A stretch of DNA of 64,000 bases, taken from the NCBI GenBank assembly GCA_028689675.1, contig JAQVCS010000007.1, positions 1-64,000 on the forward strand. Direction: 5' to 3'. This DNA is from Desulfovibrionaceae bacterium. Lineage in GTDB: Bacteria; Desulfobacterota; Desulfovibrionia; Desulfovibrionales; Desulfovibrionaceae. The notes under the pieces are model-generated. The model worked only from the letters and a program-made list of their open reading frames with translations, had not been told where the DNA came from and made no database searches. A program made the translations under genes and the position numbers. This document shows, one piece after another, positions 3,401-63,286 of this stretch. Position 1 is the stretch's first letter, and each line of letters opens with the position of its first letter.

Positions 3401-3429
3401 TTGACAGACAAAAAAGAGCGGCGTAGAAA
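3401..3429 (+). promoter_or_regulatory. Probable sigma-70 promoter of the aro operon
   Basis: TTGACA at 3401-3406, a 17-bp spacer and TAGAAA at 3424-3429 lie 28 bp before the aromatic leader peptide. The -35 is consensus and the -10 is weak. Confidence 0.55.
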
Positions 3430-3456
3430 TTCGTTTAAACAATGTAGGGGATTTTT

Positions 3457-3552
3457 ATGTACTCAATGACCACCACTTCCACCGTGCGCTTTACCAACTT
3501 TTGGTTTAGCTATTACTTTATGGAAGCCTGTGGTCAGGAGCTTCCCCTTTAG
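3457..3552 (+). CDS. Aromatic leader peptide of the aro operon attenuator
   Basis: This 31-codon frame starts with ATG behind AGGGGA. Its middle is crowded with aromatic codons: residues 12-21 read FTNFWFSYYF, that is four Phe, one Trp and two Tyr in ten positions. A rho-independent terminator follows at 3577-3611, and the first enzyme gene of the aromatic operon follows that. This is the classical layout of a peptide-mediated transcription attenuator, in which scarcity of charged aromatic tRNAs stalls the ribosome and prevents terminator formation. Mixed Phe/Tyr/Trp codons fit a pathway feeding all three amino acids. The peptide is too short and specialised to have another obvious role. The assignment comes from sequence pattern alone. 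Confidence 0.8.
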   Translation: MYSMTTTSTVRFTNFWFSYYFMEACGQELPL

Positions 3553-3611
3553 CTGTTGTATAATGGGAATGTTTTCAGGCCGCAGGCACAAAATGCCGGC
3601 GGCCTTTTTTT
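3526..3611 (+). promoter_or_regulatory. aro attenuator: antiterminator and terminator
   Basis: The terminator has arms AGGCCGCAGGCA (3577-3588) and TGCCGGCGGCCT (3594-3605), a CAAAA loop and a T-run to 3611. Just after the aromatic codons, GCCTGTGG (3526-3533) can pair over 8 bp (one G-U) with CCGCAGGC (3580-3587), which is the left arm of the terminator. The same upstream segment can instead form a local CCTG/CAGG hairpin at 3527-3538. These mutually exclusive pairings are what attenuation needs. Folding was done by eye. Confidence 0.72.
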
Positions 3612-3695: not shown

Positions 3696-4493
3696 ATGTA
3701 CCTCGGTAAACAAGTTCGTCTGGAACGCATCATCAACCGTGAAACTGGCCGCTGCATTATTGTTCCTATGGATCACGGCGTCACCATTGGCGCTTGCCAA
3801 GGCTTGCTTGACATGCGCGAAGCCGTCAACGACATGGCGCGCGCAGGCGCAGACGCCGTGCTGATGCACAAAGGCCTCATTCGCTGCTCTCACCGCACCT
3901 ATGGCAATGATGTGGGCTTGATTGTTCACCTTTCCGCCTCCACAGACCTTGCCCCCAGCGGCAATACCAAAACCCTTGTGTGCTCGGTGGAAGAAGCCAT
4001 TCGCCACGGGGCAGACGCTGTTTCAGTACATGTGAACTTGGGTGACCCCAACGAGCGCCTTATGCTGGCCGATATGGGGCGCGTGGCTGAAGCCTGTGAC
4101 AATTGGGGCATGCCGCTGCTGGCCATGCTCTATGCCCGTGGCCCGAAAATTGAAGACGGCTTTGACGCTGCCACCGTGGCACATTGCGCGCGCGTGGGTG
4201 TGGAACTAGGCGCCGATATTGTTAAAGTGGTATACACAGGCACTATTCCTACCTTTGAAAAAGTTACCGAAGCCTGCTGCGTGCCCGTGGTGATTGCTGG
4301 CGGCGAGCGCATGAATTCCACACGCGACATTCTGCAAATGGTGTACGATTCCATTCAAGCTGGGGGTTCGGGCATTTCCATTGGGCGCAATGTCTTTGAA
4401 CACCCCCGCCGTGTTGAGCTCATCCGTGCCCTGCGTGGCATTGTGCATGAAAATAAAACTGTTGACGATGTTATTGAAATGGTAGGGGAATAA
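3696..4493 (+). CDS. 2-amino-3,7-dideoxy-D-threo-hept-6-ulosonate (ADH) synthase
   Basis: A 265-residue class I aldolase-fold protein of the DhnA/AroA' family. The N-terminal VPMDHGVTIG motif and KVVYTGT, with its Schiff-base lysine, are typical. In the archaeal-type route it condenses L-aspartate semialdehyde with 6-deoxy-5-ketofructose 1-phosphate to give ADH, replacing the DAHP synthase step of the common shikimate pathway. The next gene, DHQ synthase II, does the following step, which makes ADH synthase far more likely than fructose-bisphosphate aldolase. Start at 3696 has AAGGAG 7 nt upstream. It is the first enzyme gene behind the aromatic attenuator and lies 2 bp from the next gene. 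Confidence 0.9.
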   Translation: MYLGKQVRLERIINRETGRCIIVPMDHGVTIGACQGLLDMREAVNDMARAGADAVLMHKGLIRCSHRTYGNDVGLIVHLSASTDLAPSGNTKTLVCSVEEAIRHGADAVSVHVNLGDPNERLMLADMGRVAEACDNWGMPLLAMLYARGPKIEDGFDAATVAHCARVGVELGADIVKVVYTGTIPTFEKVTEACCVPVVIAGGERMNSTRDILQMVYDSIQAGGSGISIGRNVFEHPRRVELIRALRGIVHENKTVDDVIEMVGE

Positions 4494-4495
4494 GC

Positions 4496-5464
4496 ATGAC
4501 TATTTACTACAAAAGCCTGCCCTTCAGTAAAAACGACATCACGCTGGCGCTGGAATCGGGCGTGGATGGCGTTATTGTGCCGCAAGAGCAGGTCAAGGCC
4601 GTGGCGGCGCTGTCGCGCTGCCCTGTGCTGGCCGCAGAAGAATTCCCTTCTGTGCTGCTGGGCAGCAAGGCCGATGAAGAAGCCGTGGTAGAACGCTTGC
4701 AGCAGGGCGAGCAGGTGGCCTTGGCGCGCGGCTGGGAAATTATCCCTGTGGAAAATTTGCTGGCACAATGCTCTTCTGTTGCTGTGGAAGTGGGCAGCGT
4801 AGAAGAAGCCCAGCTTGCCAGCGGCATTTTAGAGCGCGGTGTGGACTGCATTGTGGTGCTGCCCCAAGCCCTAATGGAGCTGAAAGACATTGTTGCCCTC
4901 TGCTCGCTCAACCAAGGCAAAGAAGAGCTGCAACAGGCTGTTATTACTAAGGTGCAGCCTGCTGGCCTTGGCCACCGCGTTTGTGTGGATACCATTGCCA
5001 TGCTGCGCCGCGGGCAGGGCATGCTGGTGGGCAATTCCGCCGCCTTCACCTTTTTAGTGCATGCTGAAACAGAGCATAATGAATATGTGGCAGCACGGCC
5101 TTTTCGCATCAATGCGGGGGCAGTGCATGCCTATGCGCGCCAGCCCCACGATGCCACCTGCTACCTTGAAGAATTACGCTCTGGCTCACCCGTGCTTATT
5201 GTTTCTGCCAATGGCAGCACCATACGCAGCACTGTGGGCAGGGTAAAAGTGGAAGTGCGCCCCATGCTGCTTATTGAAGCTCGCGTGGGCGAGCAAACAG
5301 GCACTATTTTTCTGCAAAATGCAGAAACCATACGCCTTACCCGCCCTGACGGCACGCCTGTAAGCGTGGTCAGCCTGAAAGAAGGCGATGAAGTGCTGTG
5401 CCGCACCGATGTGGCTGGCAGGCACTTTGGCATGCGCATCAGCGAAGATATTCGGGAGATATAA
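4496..5464 (+). CDS. 3-dehydroquinate synthase II (AroB' type)
   Basis: At 322 residues it is collinear with the archaeal-type DHQ synthase: N-terminal LESGVDGVIVPQ and central GMLVGNSAAFTFLVHAETEHNEYVAARPFRINAGAVHAY are hallmark segments (parts quoted here as GMLVGNSAAF and RPFRINAGAVHAY). It performs NAD-dependent oxidative deamination of ADH and cyclisation to 3-dehydroquinate. It is unrelated to classical AroB. The stop codon of this gene is followed directly by the pheA ATG, so the two are tightly coupled. Confidence 0.92.
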   Translation: MTIYYKSLPFSKNDITLALESGVDGVIVPQEQVKAVAALSRCPVLAAEEFPSVLLGSKADEEAVVERLQQGEQVALARGWEIIPVENLLAQCSSVAVEVGSVEEAQLASGILERGVDCIVVLPQALMELKDIVALCSLNQGKEELQQAVITKVQPAGLGHRVCVDTIAMLRRGQGMLVGNSAAFTFLVHAETEHNEYVAARPFRINAGAVHAYARQPHDATCYLEELRSGSPVLIVSANGSTIRSTVGRVKVEVRPMLLIEARVGEQTGTIFLQNAETIRLTRPDGTPVSVVSLKEGDEVLCRTDVAGRHFGMRISEDIREI

Positions 5465-6637
5465 ATGAGCGACACCCTCTCCCCAGAGCAGCGCACGGCT
5501 GCTCTAGCCTCTATTCGTCATGAAATAAACGGTGTTGATGCTGCCCTTTTACAGCTTTTAAACCAGCGCGCCGCCCTCAGCCTTGAGGTGGGGCGCATCA
5601 AAGCTGGCGATTCGGGGCTTATTTTCAAGCCCGTGCGTGAGCGCGAAGTGCTGGCCAGCCTTGTGGCCAGCAACACAGGCCCCCTGCCTGATGCCCACCT
5701 GAACAATATCTGGCGGGAAATCTTCTCGTCTTCCCGCGCTTTGCAGCGCCCGCAGCATGTTGCCTACTTGGGGCCCGAAGGCACATTCTCCTATGTGGCT
5801 GGTGTGGAATACCTTGGCCATGCGGCCACCTTTCAGCCCTGCCCCGATTTGCAGGCCGTTTTTGCCTGCGTGCACAGCGGCGAATGTGAGCTGGGCATTG
5901 TGCCCCTAGAAAATTCCCTGCAAGGCACGGTGGGGGTGAGCTTTGACCTCTTTTTTAGCTACCCCGTCTTTATTCAGGCCGAGCTCTTTTTACGCATCAG
6001 CCACTGCTTGCTGAGCAATGCCCAAAGCCGTGCCGCGGTAAAGGTTGTGTATTCGCATTCACAGCCCTTGGCACAATGCGGGCAATGGCTGCGCACCCAC
6101 TTGCCCAATGCCCGCCTTGTACCTGTGGAATCAACCGCCGCCGCTGCCCTGCGCGCCGCTACAGAGCCAGACGCCGCCGCTATTGGCAGCCACAGCCTTG
6201 CCAGCATGTATGGCTTGGATATTTTGGCGCGTGCTGTAGAAGACAACCCCGGCAACTGGACGCGCTTTGTTATTATTGGTTCGCACTCTGCCCACGACAG
6301 CCTGAGCTCGCACCAGCGCACCCCGCAGCCCGGTTTTTGCGGGGCAAATAAAAGCTCGGTGCTCTTTACCCTGCCAGACAAAGCAGGCAGCCTTGCCGCT
6401 GTGCTGATGCTGCTTGCAGAACACAAGGTGAATATGCGCAAGCTGGAATCGCGCCCCATGCGCGGCGAATGCTGGAAATATGTTTTCTTTGCCGATGTGG
6501 AATGTGCCTTGGAAGACCCTGAATATACTGACTTAGTGGAAACATTGCGTAATACCTGTAATTCGTTCCGCATTCTTGGCTCGTACCCCACAGGCCCGCA
6601 AATGGATCGCTTGGGCATGGATGAGGGGGGCGTATGA
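5465..6637 (+). CDS. pheA: Chorismate mutase / prephenate dehydratase
   Basis: A 390-residue bifunctional P-protein. Residues about 10-95 form an AroQ-type chorismate mutase (RHEINGVDAALLQLLNQRA). Residues about 105-285 form prephenate dehydratase, starting YLGPEGTFS and ending with the catalytic-region motif TRFVIIG. Residues about 295-375 are an ACT domain with the ESRP Phe-binding motif (KLESRPMRGE), so feedback inhibition by phenylalanine is expected. It converts chorismate to phenylpyruvate. It begins immediately after the DHQ synthase II stop and overlaps aroA by 4 bp (ATGA). Confidence 0.95.
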   Translation: MSDTLSPEQRTAALASIRHEINGVDAALLQLLNQRAALSLEVGRIKAGDSGLIFKPVREREVLASLVASNTGPLPDAHLNNIWREIFSSSRALQRPQHVAYLGPEGTFSYVAGVEYLGHAATFQPCPDLQAVFACVHSGECELGIVPLENSLQGTVGVSFDLFFSYPVFIQAELFLRISHCLLSNAQSRAAVKVVYSHSQPLAQCGQWLRTHLPNARLVPVESTAAAALRAATEPDAAAIGSHSLASMYGLDILARAVEDNPGNWTRFVIIGSHSAHDSLSSHQRTPQPGFCGANKSSVLFTLPDKAGSLAAVLMLLAEHKVNMRKLESRPMRGECWKYVFFADVECALEDPEYTDLVETLRNTCNSFRILGSYPTGPQMDRLGMDEGGV

Positions 6638-7965
6638 TTAGTGTAATCGCTCCCGCTTCCAAATCTGTTTCACACCGCATGATGCTGGGCGCGGCACTGG
6701 CTAAAGGGGAATCGCACCTAAGCCATGTGCTGGACAGTGTTGATCTTGAGCGCACGCGCGCTGTGCTGTGCGCAGCTGGTGCGTGCATCACGCCCTGCGG
6801 CGCTGGCGAATTTCGCGTGCAGGGCATGGCTGGCAGGCCGCAAGGGGGCACAGAACAGCAGCCTTGCGATTGCAATGTGCATGAATCGGGCACAACTTGC
6901 CGTCTGCTCACCGCTGTGCTGGCCGCTGGGCAGGGCTTTTTTGCCATTCACGGCGCAGGGCGTATGCATCAGCGCCCCATTGGCGCTTTGGTAGAAGTGC
7001 TGCGGCATGTAGGCGTTGCTGTTCAGTACACAGGGCAAGACCTGTGCCCGCCCCTGCTGCTGCACACCAAGGGCATAGCAGGCGGCAATGTCACCATTGG
7101 GTTGGAAGAATCAAGCCAATACCTTTCTGGCCTGCTTTTTGCCGCCCCCTTAAGCAAACAAGGCATGTGCATTACTATTGGCGGCAAAAGCATTGTTTCT
7201 TGGCCTTATGTGGGGCTTACCCTGCAAGCGCTTGAAAGCTTTGGTATTGCCTTTAGGGTGGAAAGCCTTGAAGAGGGCACTTGGCAGGAACAACCTTGGC
7301 GCAGCCTGCATACTGTGCGCCCGCATGCCCTGCGCATTCACATTGCCCCTGCCGTATACCGCGCAGGCAGCTATGCTGTGGAAGGGGATTGGTCTGGCGC
7401 TTCCTATCTGCTGGCGGCAGGCGCAGTACACAATCAGCCTGTGCTGGTCAAAAACCTGCGGGCAGACAGCCTGCAAGGGGACAAGGCCATTCTGGATATT
7501 TTACAGCGCATGGGCGCAGAAGTGCAGGTGCAGGCAGAAGGCATTCTGGTTGCCCCGCCAGCCCAAGGGGCATTGCAGGGCATTTCGCTTGATATGAACG
7601 CCTGCCCCGACCTTGTGCCCACAGTGGCGGTGCTGGCGGCTTTTGCCCAAGGCACAACGCATATACGCAATGTGGCGCATTTGCGCTTTAAAGAATCAGA
7701 CCGTATTGCCGCACCAGCACAAGAACTGCGCACCTTGGGCATACAGGTGGATGAGCATGAGGACGGCCTCAGCGTGCAGGGCTGTGCCCCGCGCCTGCCC
7801 CTTGTGCCCGCAGGCACTGTTTTGCACAGCCATGGCGACCACCGCATAGCCATGTCTTTGGCTCTGCTGGGGCTGGCAGGCAGGCAGCCTGTGCTGGATG
7901 ACCCCAGCGTGGTGCAAAAATCCTTCCCCACCTTCTGGGAAGTGTGGCGGGATATTGCATCATGA
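6634..7965 (+). CDS. aroA: 5-enolpyruvylshikimate-3-phosphate synthase
   Basis: A 443-residue EPSP synthase. It has the N-terminal substrate motif ASKSVSHRMM, the ESGTTCRLL loop, RFKESDRI and HGDHRIAMS near the C-terminus, all expected for the family. It joins PEP to shikimate 3-phosphate, the penultimate step to chorismate. The ATG at 6634 overlaps the pheA stop. Genes for the intermediate steps (aroD, aroE, aroK, aroC) are not in this operon or window. Confidence 0.95.
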   Translation: MISVIAPASKSVSHRMMLGAALAKGESHLSHVLDSVDLERTRAVLCAAGACITPCGAGEFRVQGMAGRPQGGTEQQPCDCNVHESGTTCRLLTAVLAAGQGFFAIHGAGRMHQRPIGALVEVLRHVGVAVQYTGQDLCPPLLLHTKGIAGGNVTIGLEESSQYLSGLLFAAPLSKQGMCITIGGKSIVSWPYVGLTLQALESFGIAFRVESLEEGTWQEQPWRSLHTVRPHALRIHIAPAVYRAGSYAVEGDWSGASYLLAAGAVHNQPVLVKNLRADSLQGDKAILDILQRMGAEVQVQAEGILVAPPAQGALQGISLDMNACPDLVPTVAVLAAFAQGTTHIRNVAHLRFKESDRIAAPAQELRTLGIQVDEHEDGLSVQGCAPRLPLVPAGTVLHSHGDHRIAMSLALLGLAGRQPVLDDPSVVQKSFPTFWEVWRDIAS

Positions 7966-8795
7966 CAAATCAAAGCACTACAGCACAGGGCACAGGGCAA
8001 GGCCAGCCGCTGGCACAGCCACCAAGCAGCCCGCAGGTCAGCACAGGTCAGCCCCGTGTGGCGCTTATTGGTTGCCATGGGCGCATGGGCACATTGTTTA
8101 TGCACAGGTTGGCGGCAGGGGCGCAGCTTTGCGGGGTGGATATGCCCCTCAGCGCAGAAAAACTGCATACTGCCTGTGCGCAGGCCGATATTGTGCTGCT
8201 CTGCGTGCCCGCCGCAGCCATGCAGGAATGCATAGCCCTGTGCGTGCCGCACATGCAGGCAGAGGCTCTGCTTGCCGATATTGTTTCTGTGAAAGAAGAG
8301 CCGCTGGCGCACATGGAAAAGGCTTGGCAGGGGGCTTGCGTGGGCACGCACCCACTCTTTGGCCCTCAGCCAGCACCCGATTTAGCGTTGCGCGTATGCC
8401 TTACCCCCGGGGCGCGTGCCAGCCAAAAGCATATCGACACCCTGCGCCAGCTGTTTGCCAGCATGGGGGCAGAATGTTTTTGCAGCACAGCGCAGGAGCA
8501 TGACCGCGCGGTAAGCCTTATTCAAAGCATGAACTTTATTACCTCGCTTACGTATTTTGCCATGCTGGCAGATAAAGAAGAGCTTAAACCCTTCATCACC
8601 CCCTCTTTTCTGCGCAGGCAGGAAGCAGCACGCAAATTGCTGACCGAAGACGGCGCTTTGTTTACTGGCCTGTTTGAAGCCAACCCCTATGCCCACGAAA
8701 GTGTGCGCCAATACCGTTCCCTCTTGAATATTGCGGCTGGTGGCGATATTGAATTATTGTTGCACAGGGCGCAGCGCTGGCTGGAACAAGCCTAG
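7962..8795 (+). CDS. tyrA: Prephenate dehydrogenase
   Basis: A 277-residue TyrA-type enzyme. It starts with a roughly 30-residue Gln/Pro-rich stretch, then the NAD(P)-binding fold VALIGCHGRMGTLF, a strand ending VLLCVPAAAM, and the conserved THPLFGP motif that carries the catalytic histidine. It converts prephenate to 4-hydroxyphenylpyruvate for tyrosine synthesis. The ATG at 7962 overlaps the aroA TGA. A GTG 18 bp upstream is possible but less likely. It is the last gene of the aro operon, which is followed by a family A repeat. Confidence 0.9.
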   Translation: MTNQSTTAQGTGQGQPLAQPPSSPQVSTGQPRVALIGCHGRMGTLFMHRLAAGAQLCGVDMPLSAEKLHTACAQADIVLLCVPAAAMQECIALCVPHMQAEALLADIVSVKEEPLAHMEKAWQGACVGTHPLFGPQPAPDLALRVCLTPGARASQKHIDTLRQLFASMGAECFCSTAQEHDRAVSLIQSMNFITSLTYFAMLADKEELKPFITPSFLRRQEAARKLLTEDGALFTGLFEANPYAHESVRQYRSLLNIAAGGDIELLLHRAQRWLEQA

Positions 8796-55824: not shown

Positions 55825-55914
55825 ATGACCTTCTCTTGCTCCATTGCTTCTTACTGCCAGAACATCTGGTGGTGGCGCATATACGATGCAGGGGGAGGTG
55901 TGCTTTTCGTATAG
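55825..55914 (+). CDS. trpL: trp operon leader peptide
   Basis: A 29-residue frame beginning MTFSCSIASYCQNI and then three consecutive tryptophan codons (TGG at 55867-55875), followed by RIYDA and a stop at 55914. Three adjacent Trp codons just before a terminator and trpE are the diagnostic layout of a trp attenuator. No strong ribosome site is seen; GAGA lies 9 nt upstream. Trp is the rarest residue in proteins, so a run of three is not expected by chance. Confidence 0.9.
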   Translation: MTFSCSIASYCQNIWWWRIYDAGGGVLFV

Positions 55915-55979
55915 AACAGCATTCAGCACTGGTATTGTATACGGCGCTGTCTCCCTAGGGAGGCAGCGCCGTTTTTTTT
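55880..55979 (+). promoter_or_regulatory. trp attenuator
   Basis: Terminator: ACGGCGCTG (55941-55949) pairs with CAGCGCCGT (55963-55971), with an inner CTCCC/GGGAG, then eight T. Switch: TATACG (55880-55885), four bases after the Trp codons, can pair with CGTATA (55908-55913), which can instead pair with TATACG (55938-55943) at the foot of the terminator. So regions 1:2, 2:3 and 3:4 of the textbook trp model are all present. Folded by eye. Confidence 0.8.
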
Positions 55980-56004
55980 ATTCTCTTTGCACAAGGAAGG
56001 AATT

Positions 56005-57414
56005 ATGAGCACCACTTCATCCACAGTATTACGTTTAGAACAGCATGCCCGCTGCCTTGCTGCCGACATGGAAACACCCATCAGCCTCTTTATGGGCATG
56101 GCCAGCAAGGGTGGCATTTTATTGGAAAGCGCCGAAGTAGACGGGCGCTGGGGGCGCTACAGCGTGCTGGCCTGCGAAACCCTGCTTAGCCTCCACTGCC
56201 GCAAAGGGCTGCTTGAGCTGAGCGTGGCCGATGACTGCCTCAAACCCCTGCTGGCTTGTGCTGGCCTGCCCTTTGTGCAGGGCTTGCGGCAAGTAATGGC
56301 CATGCTTGACATTGTGCCCGACCCCACAGCAGAGCCTTTGCCCCCCATGACGCGAGCCCTGTACGGCTATTTTGGCTTTGGCATGGCGGCCGTATTTAAC
56401 CCGCGCTTAAGCACGCTTTTTCCTCAGGAAGAAGAAAGTTGCACCCTGCTGCTGCCGCGTACAGTCATTGTGATGGATCACCTGTACAACCGCCTTGTTC
56501 AGGTCAGCATTGGCGAGCACAGCCCCCTGCAAGGCAAGCATAATGTGCCAGAAAGCAAGGAATGCGTGCTGCCCGAGCACATTGTGGCCAGCCCCAATGC
56601 CGAGGGCTATAAGGCCTGCACGCGTGCCATAAAAGAACTGCTGCGGCAGGGGGAAGCTATTCAGGTTGTGCCCTCTGTGCGTTTTTCTGCCCCTTACAGT
56701 GGCGACCCTTTTACGCTGTACCGCCGCATGCGCAACAGCAACCCTTCGCCCTATATGTTTTATATGCAATTTCCGCACATGACGCTGCTGGGCGCTTCGC
56801 CAGAGGTCATGGTGCGTTGCAGCGCGGGCACGGTTTCCATGTCCCCCATTGCGGGCACGCGCAAACGCGGCAGCACTTCTGCTGAAGATGCCCGCCTAGC
56901 CGAAGAATTGCGCCACGACCCAAAAGAATGCGCAGAGCATGTTATGCTGGTTGATTTGGGCAGAAATGATGTGGGGCGCATTGCCAAAGCTGGCACAGTG
57001 CAGGTGGAAAGGCTGATGGATATTGAACGATTTTCGCACGTTATGCACATGACCAGCCGCATTAGCGGCACAGCACAAGCAGGGCTGGATGCTTTGGATA
57101 TTTTGGCCGCCACCTTTCCCGCGGGCACAGTGAGCGGCGCACCCAAAATTCGCGCTATGGAAATTATTGCCGAAATGGAAAAACAGGCACGCGGCCCCTA
57201 TGCTGGCTGCATAGGCTGGTTGGGGCTGGATAAAGACGCTGTGCATATGGATACAGGCATTACCATACGCAGCATGTGGCTGCACAAAGGCAAGCTGCAC
57301 TGGCAGGCTGGCGGGGGAATTGTGCACGATTCTGACCCGCAGACAGAATGGGAAGAAGTGTACAATAAATCTGCCATTATGCGCCTTGTTTTGAAGCCCA
57401 CAGGAGAAAAATAA
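56005..57414 (+). CDS. trpE: Anthranilate synthase component I
   Basis: A 469-residue TrpE. It has LLES (tryptophan feedback site) near residue 35, PIAGTRKRG and LGRNDVGRIA in the chorismate-binding half, and GAPKIRAMEII. It makes anthranilate from chorismate with the glutaminase TrpG. ATG 56005 has AAGGAAGG upstream; an ATG 18 bp earlier is in frame but lies closer to the attenuator. It overlaps trpGD by 1 bp (TAATG), so translation is coupled. Confidence 0.95.
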   Translation: MSTTSSTVLRLEQHARCLAADMETPISLFMGMASKGGILLESAEVDGRWGRYSVLACETLLSLHCRKGLLELSVADDCLKPLLACAGLPFVQGLRQVMAMLDIVPDPTAEPLPPMTRALYGYFGFGMAAVFNPRLSTLFPQEEESCTLLLPRTVIVMDHLYNRLVQVSIGEHSPLQGKHNVPESKECVLPEHIVASPNAEGYKACTRAIKELLRQGEAIQVVPSVRFSAPYSGDPFTLYRRMRNSNPSPYMFYMQFPHMTLLGASPEVMVRCSAGTVSMSPIAGTRKRGSTSAEDARLAEELRHDPKECAEHVMLVDLGRNDVGRIAKAGTVQVERLMDIERFSHVMHMTSRISGTAQAGLDALDILAATFPAGTVSGAPKIRAMEIIAEMEKQARGPYAGCIGWLGLDKDAVHMDTGITIRSMWLHKGKLHWQAGGGIVHDSDPQTEWEEVYNKSAIMRLVLKPTGEK

Positions 57415-59000
57415 TGTTCCTTCTCATCGATAATTACGACTCCTTTACCTACAACCTTGTGCAGGCTTTTTATATGCTGGGGGAAAAGCCCGTGGTTGTG
57501 CCCAACGATTCGCCACGTCTGCTTGAGCTGGCCTGCGACCCAGCCCTTGAAAAGGTGTGTATTTCCCCGGGCCCCAGCAGCCCCGAAAAGGCAGGGCTGT
57601 GCCTAGAGTTTCTGCGCCTGCTTTCCCCGCGTGTGCCAGTGCTTGGCGTGTGCTTGGGGCATCAGGTGCTGGGGCTTTTTGGCGGGGCAAGCATTCGCAT
57701 AGCGCCAAGCATTGTGCACGGCAAGCAATCCCCCATTACGCACGATGGCAAGGGGCTTTTTACTGGCCTTGCCAGCCCCATGCTGGTGGGGCGCTATCAT
57801 TCGCTTGTGGTGGATATGCCCGAGCAGGAAAATGCCGCCTTTGTCGTCACCGCTCGTGGCCCCGAAGGCGAAGTGATGGCACTGCATTACAAAGACAGGC
57901 CGTGGGTTGGGGTGCAATTTCACCCCGAGTCCATTTTAAGCCCCGAAGGCCTGCGCCTGCTGGGGAACTTCCCGCAAACGGTGCTGCCCTTGGAAAATCA
58001 GGTCAGCATGCCCCTTATTCTTGAAACACTGGCAGGGGGCAAGGCGTTAACAGCTACCATGGCGGCCTCGGGCTTTGCCCGCCTGATGGATGGCGAGCTC
58101 AGCCCTGCACAGGCAGGGGCTTTTTTAATGGGGCTGCGCATCAAGGGTGAAAGCCCGCAAGAGCTTGCCGAAGCGGTACATGCGGCTTTGGCGCGTTCTG
58201 TGCGCATTCCCAGCACACAAGGGCAGGCTATTGACGTTGTGGGCACGGGCGGCGACGGCAAGCACAGCTTTAATTGCTCTACAGCCACAGCGCTGACTTT
58301 GGCAGGCATGGGCTACACTGTTATCAAGCATGGCAACCGTGCTGTTTCTTCCACCAGCGGCAGCGCCGATGCGCTGGAACGTCTGGGGCTGCCCTTTGCC
58401 AAAACACCGCAAGAGGTGCTGCAACAGGCGGCAGAAAAGCATTTTGCCTTTGTTTTTGCCCCCTATTTTCACCCAGCCTTCAAAAATATCGGGGGGGTGC
58501 GCAAAGAAATGGGCATTCGTACCCTCTTTAATTTGCTTGGCCCCATGATTAACCCCGCCTGCCCCTCGCATTTGCTTATGGGCGTGGCGCGTCCAGATAT
58601 GGTGACAACCATGGCGCAAACGCTAGGCCTTACCCGCGTACAGCGCGCGGCCGTGGTGTGCGGTGCTGGCGGCTATGATGAAATCAGCCCGCTGGGCGCG
58701 GCCACCGTCATGCTGGTAGACAAGGGGGAACTGAGCCCGCTGGAGTTGCTTCCTTCCCGCTATGGTGTGCAGCCCTGCCTGCAGGAAGACCTTGCCGTAC
58801 ACAGCAAGGAAGAAGCCTTTTTCGTGTTGCAGGAAATCTTGCGCGGCAAAGGCAAGCAAGCCATGCGCGATATGGTAATGCTCAATGTGGGCTTGGCCTT
58901 GTATTTGCTTGAGCCAGAGCTGACGCTGGAGCAGTGCATGGAAAAAGCCAGCCTTGCTGTGCAGCAAGGTGTGGGAAGCAAGGTTGTGCCCCATGCTTGA
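57414..59000 (+). CDS. trpGD: TrpG-TrpD fusion: anthranilate synthase II and anthranilate phosphoribosyltransferase
   Basis: A 528-residue fusion. Residues about 1-190 are the glutamine amidotransferase TrpG (DNYDSFTYNL, catalytic Cys in GVCLGHQ, His and Glu in FHPES). From about residue 200 comes the TrpD phosphoribosyltransferase (GTGGDGKHSFNCST, KHGNRAVSS). The fusion occurs in E. coli and other lineages. It supplies ammonia to TrpE and attaches PRPP to anthranilate. It overlaps trpC by 8 bp. Confidence 0.95.
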   Translation: MFLLIDNYDSFTYNLVQAFYMLGEKPVVVPNDSPRLLELACDPALEKVCISPGPSSPEKAGLCLEFLRLLSPRVPVLGVCLGHQVLGLFGGASIRIAPSIVHGKQSPITHDGKGLFTGLASPMLVGRYHSLVVDMPEQENAAFVVTARGPEGEVMALHYKDRPWVGVQFHPESILSPEGLRLLGNFPQTVLPLENQVSMPLILETLAGGKALTATMAASGFARLMDGELSPAQAGAFLMGLRIKGESPQELAEAVHAALARSVRIPSTQGQAIDVVGTGGDGKHSFNCSTATALTLAGMGYTVIKHGNRAVSSTSGSADALERLGLPFAKTPQEVLQQAAEKHFAFVFAPYFHPAFKNIGGVRKEMGIRTLFNLLGPMINPACPSHLLMGVARPDMVTTMAQTLGLTRVQRAAVVCGAGGYDEISPLGAATVMLVDKGELSPLELLPSRYGVQPCLQEDLAVHSKEEAFFVLQEILRGKGKQAMRDMVMLNVGLALYLLEPELTLEQCMEKASLAVQQGVGSKVVPHA

Positions 59001-59937
59001 GCAATTTCGCACTGCCAAAAAGGCAGAAATTCAGCAGCTTGAAGCCTTGGCACAGGCGCATGCCCTGCCGCCAGCCCTGCAAGGGCAACGCCCTTCTTTT
59101 TCTGGCGCATTGCGTGCCGCTGGGCAGCCCATAGCTATTATTGCCGAATATAAACGCGCATCCCCTTCACGCGGGCTTATTTGCAGCCATGTGCCCGTGG
59201 AAGAAGCCGCAAGGCAGTATACAAAAAATGGGGCATGCTGCTTGTCCATATTAACAGAAAGCAGCGCTTTTCAGGGAGAATTGGGCTTTCTTGACCGCGC
59301 TGCTGCCGTCAGCCCCTTGCCCTTATTGCGTAAGGACTTCATTTTTCACCCTCTACAGGTGCAGGCCACAGCCGCAACGCAGGCCGCTGCCCTACTCTTG
59401 ATTGTGCGCCTTACGCCTGATGTGCACCTGCTGCGTTCTTTGCGCGAACAAGCCCAAGGCTATGGCATGGAAGCCGTGGTAGAAGTATTTGACGCCGACG
59501 AGCTGGCCTTGGCGCGCGCCAGCGGTGCAAAGCTTATTCAGGTAAATGCCCGCAATTTATCCAGCCTGAGTGTGGATGCACAACGCTGCCTTGACGTGGC
59601 ACAGCAATGCCCGCCGCAAGAAAATGAATGCTGGATTGCCGCCAGCGGTATTTGCCACGGGGCTAGCCTGCCCACGCTGGCAGCCGCAGGCTATAAGGCG
59701 GCCTTGGTGGGTTCGGCACTCATGGCGGGGGGGCAGCCGGGGGCAGCCCTGCATGCCCTGCTGCACGAAGCCACGCAAGACAAAGAACAGGCAACACAGC
59801 ATAATAAAGGGCAAGCCATGCACAAGAAAACGCAGGCAGAGCAGCAAGGCGAAGGGCAAGCCATGCAAGCGGGGCAACAAGCAGTAGCAGCACACTGCGG
59901 GGCGCAGGCAGCGCAAGCCAAGGAGCGCATAGTATGA
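58993..59937 (+). CDS. trpC: Indole-3-glycerol phosphate synthase with Gln/Ala-rich tail
   Basis: A 314-residue protein. Residues 1 to about 258 are a standard TrpC barrel (AEYKRASPSRG, LLRKDFIFHP, NARNLSSL, GSALMAG). After GALHALL an extra roughly 55 residues, Gln/Ala/Lys-rich and without structure (EQATQHNKGQ, KKTQAEQQGE, AGQQAVAAHCGAQAAQ), follow to the stop. TrpC is normally about 260 residues. The tail lies where other bacteria fuse TrpC to TrpF. It overlaps trpF by 4 bp. ATG 58993 is chosen over an upstream frame that lies in trpD. Confidence 0.92.
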   Translation: MLEQFRTAKKAEIQQLEALAQAHALPPALQGQRPSFSGALRAAGQPIAIIAEYKRASPSRGLICSHVPVEEAARQYTKNGACCLSILTESSAFQGELGFLDRAAAVSPLPLLRKDFIFHPLQVQATAATQAAALLLIVRLTPDVHLLRSLREQAQGYGMEAVVEVFDADELALARASGAKLIQVNARNLSSLSVDAQRCLDVAQQCPPQENECWIAASGICHGASLPTLAAAGYKAALVGSALMAGGQPGAALHALLHEATQDKEQATQHNKGQAMHKKTQAEQQGEGQAMQAGQQAVAAHCGAQAAQAKERIV

Positions 59938-60566
59938 TTATTAAAATTTGTGGAATCACCCGCCAGCAGGATGCCGATGTGCTGCAAAAATTGCATGTGG
60001 ATATGTGCGGCTTTATTTTTCACCCGCGCAGCCCGCGCGCCATCAGCCCCGAGCTGGCAGCCCTGCTGCGCACGGGCAGGGTGCAGCGTGTTGGTGTGTT
60101 TGTTGGGCAGCATGCTGTAGATATTAAGCGCATTATGAATGCCGCCACGCTGGATTTTGCCCAATTGCATGGCGAACAATCCATAGCCTGTGCCCAAGCT
60201 GTGGGGGCAGAACGCATTATTCGCGTGCTGTGGCCAGCGCGCTACCCCAGCAAAGAAGCCTTGCAGGCCGCGCTGGAACACTATGCCCCCACCTGCGCCT
60301 ATTTTCTTTTTGACGCAGGTCAGCAGGGCGGCGGCAGCGGGCAAAGCTTCAATTGGTCACTCTTGCAGGGCTTGCACAGCCCACGCCCCTTTTTGCTGGC
60401 TGGGGGGCTTCAGGCGGCTACTGTGCCGCAATGCCTAAGCCTTTGCCAGCCTGATGGCCTTGATTTTAATTCGGGCATTGAAGTGCGCGCTGGCATCAAA
60501 AATACAGAGCAGCTGTGTGCCGCTGTGCAGGCGGCGCGAGCCTATACAATGCAGGAACAGGCATAA
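59934..60566 (+). CDS. trpF: Phosphoribosylanthranilate isomerase
   Basis: A 210-residue TIM-barrel enzyme: KICGITRQQDAD with the catalytic cysteine, GFIFHPRSPR, LHGEQS, LLAGGL, and DFNSGIE near the end with the catalytic aspartate region. It converts phosphoribosylanthranilate to the keto form used by TrpC. The ATG overlaps the trpC stop. A 51-bp spacer with a GCCGCA/TGCGGC hairpin separates it from trpB. Confidence 0.93.
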   Translation: MIIKICGITRQQDADVLQKLHVDMCGFIFHPRSPRAISPELAALLRTGRVQRVGVFVGQHAVDIKRIMNAATLDFAQLHGEQSIACAQAVGAERIIRVLWPARYPSKEALQAALEHYAPTCAYFLFDAGQQGGGSGQSFNWSLLQGLHSPRPFLLAGGLQAATVPQCLSLCQPDGLDFNSGIEVRAGIKNTEQLCAAVQAARAYTMQEQA

Positions 60567-60617
60567 TATAACTCTTCTTTTTACAGGCCGCACAGGCTGC
60601 GGCAAAGGTATATTCTC

Positions 60618-61796
60618 ATGAAAAAAGGCTATTTTGGTGACTTTGGCGGCTGTTTTGTGCCCGAATTGCTCATGCCCCCCCTGCTTGAGGTGGAAGAAGC
60701 CATGCAAAAAATTATGCCCACAGCACAATTTCGCGCAGAGCTTGACGACTTGCTGCATTCCTACGCAGGGCGCGAAACCCCGCTGACCCTGTGCCCAAAC
60801 CTTTCGCAAAAGCTGGGCTTTACCCTGCGCCTAAAGCGAGAAGATTTGCTGCACACAGGCGCGCATAAAATAAATAACACGTTAGGGCAGGCCTTATTGG
60901 CAAAATATATGGGCAAAAGCGCCTTGGTGGCAGAAACAGGCGCAGGGCAGCATGGTGTGGCCACGGCCGCCGCGGCAGCAAGGCTGGGCTTGCAATGCAC
61001 TATTTTTATGGGGGCAGACGATGTAACAAGGCAGGCCTCGAATGTATGCCGCATGCGCCTGCTGGGGGCAAAGGTGCACCCTGTGCACAGCGGCACGCGC
61101 ACCCTAAAAGATGCGATTAACGAAGCCTTGCGCTTTTGGATTCGCTCGCAGGAAAGCACGCATTATTGCTTTGGCACAGCCGCAGGCCCCCACCCCTTCC
61201 CCACATTGGTGCGCGAATTTCAAAGTGTGCTGGGGCAGGAAACACGCAAGCAAATGCTGGCCGCCACAGGCCGTCTGCCCGATGCCGTGGTGGCCGCTGT
61301 GGGCGGGGGCTCAAATGCCATTGGCATGTTTGCCCCCTTTATTCATGACCCCGAAGTGCGCCTTGTAGGCGTGGAAGCCGCAGGCACTGGCGAGGCTGGC
61401 TGCTATAATTCTGCCCCGCTCAATTTAGGCACAGATGGCGTGCTGCACGGCAACTTTACCAAGCTGCTGCAAACAGCCGATGGGCAAATCGAGCCCTCTC
61501 ATTCTGTTTCGGCTGGTTTAGATTACCCCGGTGTGGGGCCAGAGCATGCCTACCTGCACGCCACAGGCCGCGCAGAATACGGCATGGCCAACGATGCGCA
61601 GGCGCTGAATGCCTTTCAAGTGCTGTGCCACACCGAAGGCATTTTGCCCGCGCTGGAGTCTTCCCACGCGCTGGCCTATGTGCTTGAGCACCCCCAAGCC
61701 TTCCCCGCTGGGGGCGAGGTGGTGGTAAACCTGTCTGGCCGCGGTGATAAAGATATGGATATTGTCCGTCACGCTCTTTCCCTTGAAGATCTTTAA
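60618..61796 (+). CDS. trpB: Tryptophan synthase beta chain
   Basis: A 392-residue TrpB1-type enzyme. [13 protein letters not shown] opens it; the PLP lysine is in [19 protein letters not shown] binds the phosphate; the C-terminal part has GTGEAG and LSGRGDKD. It condenses indole with serine. AAGGTA lies before the ATG. Confidence 0.96.
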
Positions 61797-61808
61797 AAGG
61801 AACTTGTT

Positions 61809-62570
61809 ATGCACAGCTTGGAACAAAAAATACGCGCTACGCAATCTCGATTTGCCCTTATTCCTTATATTACAGCAGGCTTTCCCACCCGTGCCACCTT
61901 TTGGCAGCAAGTGGAAGAGCTGGATGCCCACGGTGCTGACATTATTGAAATTGGCGTACCCTTTTCTGACCCTGTGGCCGATGGCCCTGTGGTGGAAGAT
62001 GCCGCAAGGCGGGCGCTGGCAGAAGGTATGAGCCTTGAGCTGCTGCTCAGTGAGCTTGGCGCACGCAAGCACAGCCTGCGCGCTGGGCTGGTGCTGATGG
62101 GCTATATGAACCCCTTTTTGCAATATGGGCTGGAGCGCTTTGCCCGCGATGCGGCTGCGGCAGGGGTGCAGGGCTGCATTGTGCCCGACCTGCCCTATGA
62201 AGAAGCAGAAGAATTTCGCTTGGCCTTGCGTGCACAGGGCATAGCGCTCATTACGCTGGTGGGGCAAAATACGTCAGAAGAGCGCATGCGCTTGTATGCC
62301 ACAGTAAGCGAAGGCTATGTGTATGTTGTGTCTGTTATGGGCACAACTGGTGGCAAAGGCAGCCTGCCCGCTGCCGCTGCCGAAACTTTGGCGCGGGCGC
62401 GCAAGGTCTTTACTGTGCCGCTGGCGCTTGGCTTTGGGCTGGAAAAGACCTCGCAGGTGGCTGCCCTGCCTGTTTTGCCCGATGCCGTGGTCTTTGGCAG
62501 TGCTTTGCTGCGCCATATTGATGCTGGCAACAGTGCAGCATCCTTTATGCAGAACTTTGTTAATAACTAA
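61809..62570 (+). CDS. trpA: Tryptophan synthase alpha chain
   Basis: A 253-residue TIM barrel. ALIPYITAGFP and IEIGVPFSDPVADGP contain the catalytic Glu and Asp, and VVSVMGTTGGKG the phosphate loop. It splits indole-3-glycerol phosphate and channels indole to TrpB. AAGGAAC precedes the ATG, 12 bp after trpB. Last gene of the operon. Confidence 0.96.
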   Translation: MHSLEQKIRATQSRFALIPYITAGFPTRATFWQQVEELDAHGADIIEIGVPFSDPVADGPVVEDAARRALAEGMSLELLLSELGARKHSLRAGLVLMGYMNPFLQYGLERFARDAAAAGVQGCIVPDLPYEEAEEFRLALRAQGIALITLVGQNTSEERMRLYATVSEGYVYVVSVMGTTGGKGSLPAAAAETLARARKVFTVPLALGFGLEKTSQVAALPVLPDAVVFGSALLRHIDAGNSAASFMQNFVNN

Positions 62571-63029: not shown

Positions 63030-63106
63030 TGGTGCGCCCGAAGAGATTCGAACTCCTGGCCTACAGGTTCGTAGCCTGTTGCTCTATCCAGCTGAGCTAC
63101 GGACGC
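63030..63106 (-). tRNA. tRNA-Arg (anticodon ACG), second copy
   Basis: A 77-nt gene on the minus strand, CCA encoded. GCGTCCG pairs with CGGGCGC in the acceptor (with a T-G pair), and the anticodon loop CTACGAA gives ACG. Confidence 0.95.
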
Positions 63107-63122
63107 ACAGAATGCAAAAAAA

Positions 63123-63199
63123 TGGTGCGCCCGAAGAGATTCGAACTCCTGGCCTACAGGTTCGTAGCCTGTTGCTCTATCCAGCTGAGCTACGGACGC
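63123..63199 (-). tRNA. tRNA-Arg (anticodon ACG), first copy
   Basis: Identical in all 77 bases to the copy at 63030, with 16 bp between them. Being upstream, it is transcribed first. Confidence 0.95.
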
Positions 63200-63286
63200 A
63201 CACTGCGCGCTGAAAGCATTCTTCCCTCGCGACAGAGAAGGAATATAGAAAATGCTCACAAGCGTCAAGAACTTTTTTATCTTTTT

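Follow-up and report, generated by a model that had tools for sequence, protein, structure and literature searches.

The locus raises the question of whether a short frame crowded with aromatic codons, lying upstream of an aromatic amino acid operon of archaeal type, controls that operon and, if so, which amino acids it reads. It was analyzed within the window, i.e., the whole 64,000-nucleotide stretch of Desulfovibrionaceae DNA under study. A ribosome-mediated attenuator combines a short leader rich in end-product codons, an intrinsic terminator ahead of the first gene, a mutually exclusive antiterminator that uses the terminator's left arm, and control codons sited so that strand 2 of the RNA is exposed when the ribosome stalls and covered when it moves on. 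The locus meets all of these criteria, with translation of the leader being inferred and the siting of the codons being predicted by a stall model and by fixed spacing. The locus is therefore very likely (probability of about 0.92) a ribosome-mediated transcription attenuator of the classical type. The leader, both covarying helices, the fixed spacing, and a codon content matched to gene context are shown; there are no expression data, and translation and the co-transcriptional switch are inferred.

The operon lies on the forward strand and was identified, like the trp genes, with NCBIfam models. It encodes ADH synthase (2-amino-3,7-dideoxy-D-threo-hept-6-ulosonate synthase; 3696 to 4493; TIGR01949, 372 bits against a cut-off of 299), 3-dehydroquinate (DHQ) synthase II (4496 to 5464; NF002628, 548 bits against a cut-off of 508), the chorismate mutase-prephenate dehydratase PheA (5465 to 6637; NF008865 over its cut-off, plus a chorismate mutase domain), the EPSP synthase AroA (6634 to 7965; TIGR01356 over its cut-off), and a prephenate dehydrogenase-like TyrA (7944 to 8795; several prephenate dehydrogenase models, all below cut-off). 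DAHP synthase (PF00793) and classical AroB (TIGR01357) gave no match in this genome, which is 99.5% complete and in which the positive controls were detected. The genome thus meets the definition of the archaeal-type route, with ADH synthase and DHQ synthase II present and DAHP synthase and AroB absent, and the operon is the sole pathway entry found. The switch would therefore gate the flow to all three aromatic amino acids, although the response itself is inferred. The same strand carries trpE-trpGD-trpC-trpF-trpB-trpA (55987 to 62570), preceded by a separate Trp leader, MTFSCSIASYCQNIWWWRIYDAGGGVLFV, with WWW (55825 to 55914; leader RNA z = -6.8) and by an intrinsic terminator predicted by sequence and folding, with a 14-bp stem and a U-run (55941 to 55980). 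The layout of the window suggests two levels of control, one at the pathway entry that responds to three amino acids and one at the Trp branch that responds to Trp, an inference from sequence without expression data. Two near-identical tandem tRNA-like repeats, apparently on the minus strand, are located at 63030 to 63200.

The leader peptide gene (3457 to 3552, forward strand, ATG to TAG) encodes the 31-amino-acid peptide MYSMTTTSTVRFTNFWFSYYFMEACGQELPL and is the only frame of 15 to 60 amino acids in the 64-kb window with seven aromatic residues in ten. Its control codons, F-T-N-F-W-F-S-Y-Y-F (3490 to 3519), comprise four Phe, two Tyr, and one Trp codon, assigned from the sequence and the stall model. 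A Shine-Dalgarno sequence, AGGGG (3446 to 3450), ends 6 nucleotides 5' of the ATG, and a sigma-70 promoter is predicted at 3401 to 3429 (TTGACA at 3401 to 3406, a 17-nucleotide spacer, and TAGAAA at 3424 to 3429), with the start site being inferred. Of 74 leaders, 54 have a TTGAC-like -35 element 15 to 75 nucleotides 5' of the start of the frame, compared with 4.3% of shuffles, and the whole leader RNA folds with a z score of -3.9 relative to shuffles. Another aromatic frame in the window (NFFIFFYF, at 63252) overlaps the end of an opposite-strand gene and was set aside.

The RNA can adopt two competing structures. The left arm of the antiterminator, strand 2 (GCCTGTGGTC, 3526 to 3535), lies within the leader frame; strand 3 (GGCCGCAGGC, 3578 to 3587) is at once the right arm of the antiterminator and the left arm of the terminator; and strand 4 (GCCGGCGGCC) with its U-run (3595 to 3611) completes the intrinsic terminator. 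The terminator stem (3578 to 3587 with 3595 to 3604) has one A.G mismatch, is followed by T7 (3605 to 3611), and folds at -20.7 kcal/mol; the 2:3 hairpin alone folds at -30.2 kcal/mol. A simple terminator scan of the window did not list the hairpin at 3578 to 3604, probably because of the mismatch. A first-pass annotation had reported the 31-codon frame with FTNFWFSYYF, a rho-independent terminator, and the gene order, all of which held and lie where it placed them. It had also proposed pairing between 3526 to 3533 (GCCTGTGG) and 3580 to 3587 (CCGCAGGC); this held as well, and the full pairing is longer (10 bp, 3526 to 3535 with 3578 to 3587) and covaries. A candidate strand 1 (GACCACCAC, 3468 to 3476) can pair with GTGGTC of strand 2, and this protector hairpin is present in the minimum free energy fold of the window leader but only weakly enriched over shuffles in the relatives (mean z, -0.78), so the behavior of the switch without translation is uncertain.

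Covariation was measured on a 54-sequence alignment of leaders, with 500 shuffles as the null. In the terminator, 92% of the cells are paired, and six pairs show two-sided changes (23 such cells), which no shuffle matched (0/500). In the antiterminator, 94.8% of the cells are paired, with seven double changes, again matched by 0/500 shuffles; slid versions of this pairing reach only 36 to 42%. Strand-3 column 180 separates the two helices: it is unpaired with strand 4 in 38 of the 54 sequences and paired with strand 2 in all 54, including 7 U-A to C-G double changes. Most simply, the antiterminator accounts for the retention of this base and is selected separately from the terminator. Conserved structure is confined to the 2:3 and 3:4 helices, and the remainder is a reading frame with fixed spacing.

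Conservation was assessed in 80 loci encoding the nearest ADH synthases, 79 of which have upstream DNA. An aromatic leader and terminator are present in 76 of the 79, and six or more aromatic residues in ten were found in 70 of the 79 real upstream regions, compared with 0.6% of dinucleotide shuffles. Three loci lack a leader directly upstream: L040 is a second copy behind a Lon-like gene, L064 lies on an odd contig, and L074 is the second of two tandem copies. The cores of 75 close-relative leaders contain 304 Phe, 200 Tyr, and 66 Trp codons in total. Phe occurs in 75/75 and Tyr in 74/75 of these nearest Desulfovibrio relatives but Trp in only 60/75, which makes Trp sensing the least certain part of the reading. 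The linked trp operon was considered as the source of the Trp codon and rejected, since Trp is common although just 2 of 61 close-relative loci carry a linked trpE. The peptide tail EACGRE, of which ACGRE is encoded by strand 2, is kept in most close relatives. The GCCTGTGG-like bases fall in a different frame in L038, L051, and L066 and in the symporter leaders L192, L193, and L195, and they lie beyond the leader stop in L039; strand 2 is therefore conserved as RNA in these loci, and conservation as peptide was rejected.

A covariance model built from the leader, R1, finds matches in nearly all members of the class surveyed (147 of 149 genomes; 36 of 38 genera). The second R1 match in the window's genome (C23:141550-141615) was rejected as an ordinary terminator; it spans only the terminator half and lacks an aromatic leader. 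In other classes of Desulfobacterota, ADH synthase genes are often preceded by aromatic leaders, such as NYYFYFWYYWF and IYTYWWGFFFYFY (within L154 to L179), whose arms differ in sequence yet pair on the same plan (CCCACGG with CCGTGG in L156 and L163; also L170 and L176). These may represent an old switch whose arms were replaced or more than one origin, and common origin and convergence remain unresolved. Metagenome bins supplied many of the sequences, and the relatives cannot be counted as independent samples.

The distance between the control codons and strand 2 is fixed. Exactly 10 nucleotides separate the strand-2 core from the last aromatic codon, counted from the first base of that codon, in 60 of 74 close-relative leaders and in 27 of 34 leaders from other genera (87/108 overall). 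In the stall model, in which the ribosome footprint is masked and strand 4 is not yet transcribed, the 2:3 helix forms with the ribosome at any codon through Tyr19, retains seven pairs at Tyr20, and does not form at codons 22 to 31. It can re-form when the ribosome occupies the stop codon, and therefore ribosome release or timing must be favorable. In the full-length RNA at equilibrium, the terminator is favored at nearly every stall position, and the switch must therefore be kinetic and co-transcriptional, as in known attenuators; the race model of attenuation (PMC1183508) serves as the comparison.

In the mechanism that we propose, transcription would start near position 3436, and a ribosome would begin the leader peptide. 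Under a shortage of tRNA charged with Phe, Tyr, or Trp, the ribosome would slow on codons 12 to 20, leaving strand 2 free to pair with strand 3 once the latter is transcribed. The resulting 2:3 hairpin (about -30 kcal/mol) would sequester strand 3 so that it could not pair with strand 4, and transcription would continue into the genes for ADH synthase, DHQ synthase II, PheA, AroA, and TyrA. When all three amino acids are plentiful, the ribosome would cover strand 2, the 3:4 terminator would form, and transcription would stop about 90 nucleotides before the ADH synthase gene. The trp operon would answer separately through its own Trp-only leader. The transcription start site, pausing, folding order, and response to each amino acid are inferred.

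Which amino acids are read can be approached through gene context. The survey read every ADH synthase copy scoring above the family cut-off in 29 genomes of 23 genera; the operon tally adds the window's genus and two separately read leaders (G021 and G030). For operon-linked ADH synthases, the run contains all three of Phe, Tyr, and Trp in each of the 24 genera, which represent six families. The leaders of stand-alone ADH synthase paralogs have Phe-only runs (RFFFFFSFF and AFFFSFFFF), Tyr-only runs (TYYYYGY and QYYYSYG), or Phe/Tyr runs, with Trp in 0 of 12 genera. Those dominated by Phe are L227, L228, L234, L239, L244, L256, L257, L260, and L261, and those dominated by Tyr are L269, L270, L273, L274, and L275; these paralogs sit in genomes whose operon copy has a Phe, Tyr, and Trp leader. 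Trp is thus found in 24/24 operon genera versus 0/17 rows of stand-alone ADH synthases plus symporters, at about one row per genus (Fisher's P = 7e-12, which is only a guide because of phylogenetic dependence). The aromatic codons are selected as codons, since Tyr-only and Trp-only runs fill the same place in the leader. In the ADH synthase protein tree, Phe-type and Tyr-type copies cluster, at least two changes are forced for the Phe label, and a leaderless clade is also present. L274, labeled leaderless in the tree, has a Tyr leader, GPYYYYG, which fits its position among the Tyr-type copies. Tandem ADH synthase pairs within one operon were observed at L225, L226, L263, L265, L231, L271, and L074, with the first copy after the leader and the second immediately 5' of the DHQ synthase II gene.

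The switch is not restricted to biosynthetic genes. R1 also matches upstream of a gene for a sodium:solute symporter of about 535 amino acids (Pfam SSF) in at least four genera, with Phe-dominated leaders (MNTNQNRFSFFFFFSFRFFRSACGLGVCV) and the same antiterminator and terminator (L182 to L193, L195, L198, L295, and L297 to L299). None of the five symporter leaders compared contains Trp. Three genomes, each from a different family, have a TRAP DctP gene behind a Trp-rich leader, with the runs LWWWRASCGR (G020), AWWWQWWRVSCG (G034), and KWQNCWWLW (G097), and a fourth Trp-rich leader was found in G138. The leaders in this Trp-rich group are L300, L309, L346, and L362; the DctP gene was seen for L300, L309, and L346, and a TRAP target is presumed for L362. 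An aromatic leader is lacking from the symporter genes of G034 and G023 and from most family-f1 TRAP homologs, so both links are clade limited. The symporter is probably a phenylalanine importer and the TRAP system a tryptophan uptake system, both substrates being inferred from codons alone. Two single cases were also observed. At L308 (G138:C87:3856-3998), a Phe/Tyr-rich leader and terminator precede an AMP-binding, phenylacetate-CoA-ligase-like gene, which possibly points to Phe synthesis from phenylacetate; at L302 (G127:C5:42163-42250), a leader with two Trp codons and a terminator precede a gene for a TrpB-like PLP enzyme.

These results bear on the remaining claims of the first-pass annotation. 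The check that it proposed, a conserved aromatic frame with a covarying terminator and antiterminator upstream of ADH synthase genes in Desulfovibrionales, was passed strongly. Its claim that Phe, Tyr, and Trp are read together is supported by the presence of all three in every operon genus and the absence of Trp from the stand-alone paralogs, with the response to starvation being inferred. The lack of DAHP synthase and AroB matches adds weight to its claim that the switch sets the flow into the entire pathway, although flow control is likewise inferred. The occurrence of the same switch before paralogous ADH synthases, the symporter, and other aromatic genes goes beyond what it had claimed. 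The Trp branch, in addition, has its own WWW leader in the window.

The rival that survives best, although we consider it unlikely, is that the leader attenuates in response to Phe (and Tyr) only, with the Trp codon being a passenger and Trp not regulating the operon. It is favored by the single Trp codon in the window leader, the absence of Trp from 15 of 75 close relatives, and the separate WWW leader of the trp operon; in addition, with Corynebacterium glutamicum AroR (Phe-Tyr-Phe), limitation for Phe but reportedly not for Tyr raises transcription (PMC11802643). Against it, Trp is present in 24 of 24 operon genera and absent from the 12 stand-alone ADH synthase genera and the five symporter leaders, and passengers would not sort by gene context. 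A second rival, which is very unlikely, is a TnaC-like arrest peptide, in which a free metabolite is sensed by the nascent chain with its ACGRE tail. The retention of the EACGRE tail in most close relatives is in its favor, but the tail bases are out of frame or beyond the stop in the loci named above (L038, L039, L051, L066, L192, L193, and L195), and the composition of the run varies freely among Phe, Tyr, and Trp. Equally hard to sustain is a riboswitch, T-box, or protein-bound antiterminator with an incidental frame. The strong conserved RNA helices would suit it, but an Rfam search of the leader returned only chance matches, with no family at its gathering score (the neighboring tRNA alone reached its own), and nothing outside the 2:3 and 3:4 helices is conserved as structure. 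A constitutive terminator behind a T-rich linker, without regulation, is all but excluded: Phe codons are U-rich and upstream terminators are common in operons, but Tyr-only (TYYYYGY) and Trp-only (LWWWR) leaders occur in the same architecture, the enrichment is frame specific, and the antiterminator covaries.

With the attenuator reading preferred, a bolder one is likely, namely, that the aromatic supply of Desulfobacterota is governed by one attenuator family whose codons are re-tuned gene by gene: Phe, Tyr, and Trp for the operon, Phe only or Tyr only for duplicate ADH synthases, Phe for the symporter, and Trp for the TRAP transporter and the TrpB-like enzyme. Since the switch recurs with re-tuned codons before duplicate genes and transporters, it probably marks each gene's cognate amino acid; if so, the leader codons are a key to the substrates of uncharacterized transporters and isozymes, and they already suggest probable substrates for orphan transporters (a Phe symporter and a Trp TRAP system), from codons alone. 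Because the tuning of the leader differs among paralogs of one enzyme, codon replacement alone seems sufficient to change signal specificity, and the leader family offers a model set for testing how the sensitivity of an attenuator depends on the order and spacing of its codons. The attenuator also offers a control mechanism for archaeal-type aromatic entry in bacteria, for which no regulator is described in the papers searched.

The first-pass annotation regarded this arrangement as apparently undescribed for this pathway variant, and no description was found in the open-access literature searched, whether for attenuation of ADH synthase, for a leader reading Phe, Tyr, and Trp, or for paralog-specific leaders of entry enzymes. 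The same search found no attenuators of aromatic genes in Desulfovibrio or deltaproteobacteria, which is weak evidence, since it covered open-access papers only; Rodionov 2004 (PMC545781) does not contain the term "leader peptide," and its single attenuation passage concerns THI-elements. Leader-peptide attenuation and multi-amino-acid leaders are already known, and near precedents exist in C. glutamicum aroR and an Acholeplasma aroF motif.

The C. glutamicum aroR-aroF attenuator (Neshat et al. 2014, as cited in PMC11802643; also PMC4046766) likewise has a leader peptide before the first aromatic-pathway enzyme and works by ribosome stalling, there on Phe-Tyr-Phe. It differs in that it belongs to an actinobacterium, targets a DAHP synthase, and has three aromatic codons, with no Trp reported. 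Here, the target is the ADH synthase of the archaeal-type route, PF00793 being absent from the genome, so the locus lacks the DAHP synthase target of AroR; about five to nine codons cover all three amino acids, and the leader family is re-tuned for each paralog. The uORFC-13-1 motif upstream of aroF in Acholeplasma (PMC8632094), known from 24 sequences whose known organisms all belong to one genus, also combines an upstream frame having one or more Phe codons with a terminator before the first pathway gene, but its structure is different and its target is again a DAHP synthase. The pheA, pheST, and trp attenuators of Escherichia coli share the leader peptide, the alternative 2:3 antiterminator and 3:4 terminator, and the end-product codons; however, each reads one amino acid. 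Here, strand 2 lies inside the leader frame, and no Rfam match to those leaders was found. A single leader reads several amino acids in the thr and ilvGMEDA/ilvBN attenuators of enterobacteria; those leaders read Thr and Ile or the branched-chain amino acids, and the leader described here is inferred to read the aromatic trio. Finally, the differently tuned paralogs resemble AroG, AroF, and AroH of E. coli, first-step isozymes that respond to different aromatic amino acids. In E. coli, this specificity is achieved by allostery and the repressors TyrR and TrpR, whereas here it is apparently achieved by the leader codons of each paralog, and, if the bolder reading is true, the duplicate ADH synthases are a codon-encoded counterpart of the Phe-, Tyr-, and Trp-sensitive DAHP synthases of E. 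coli.
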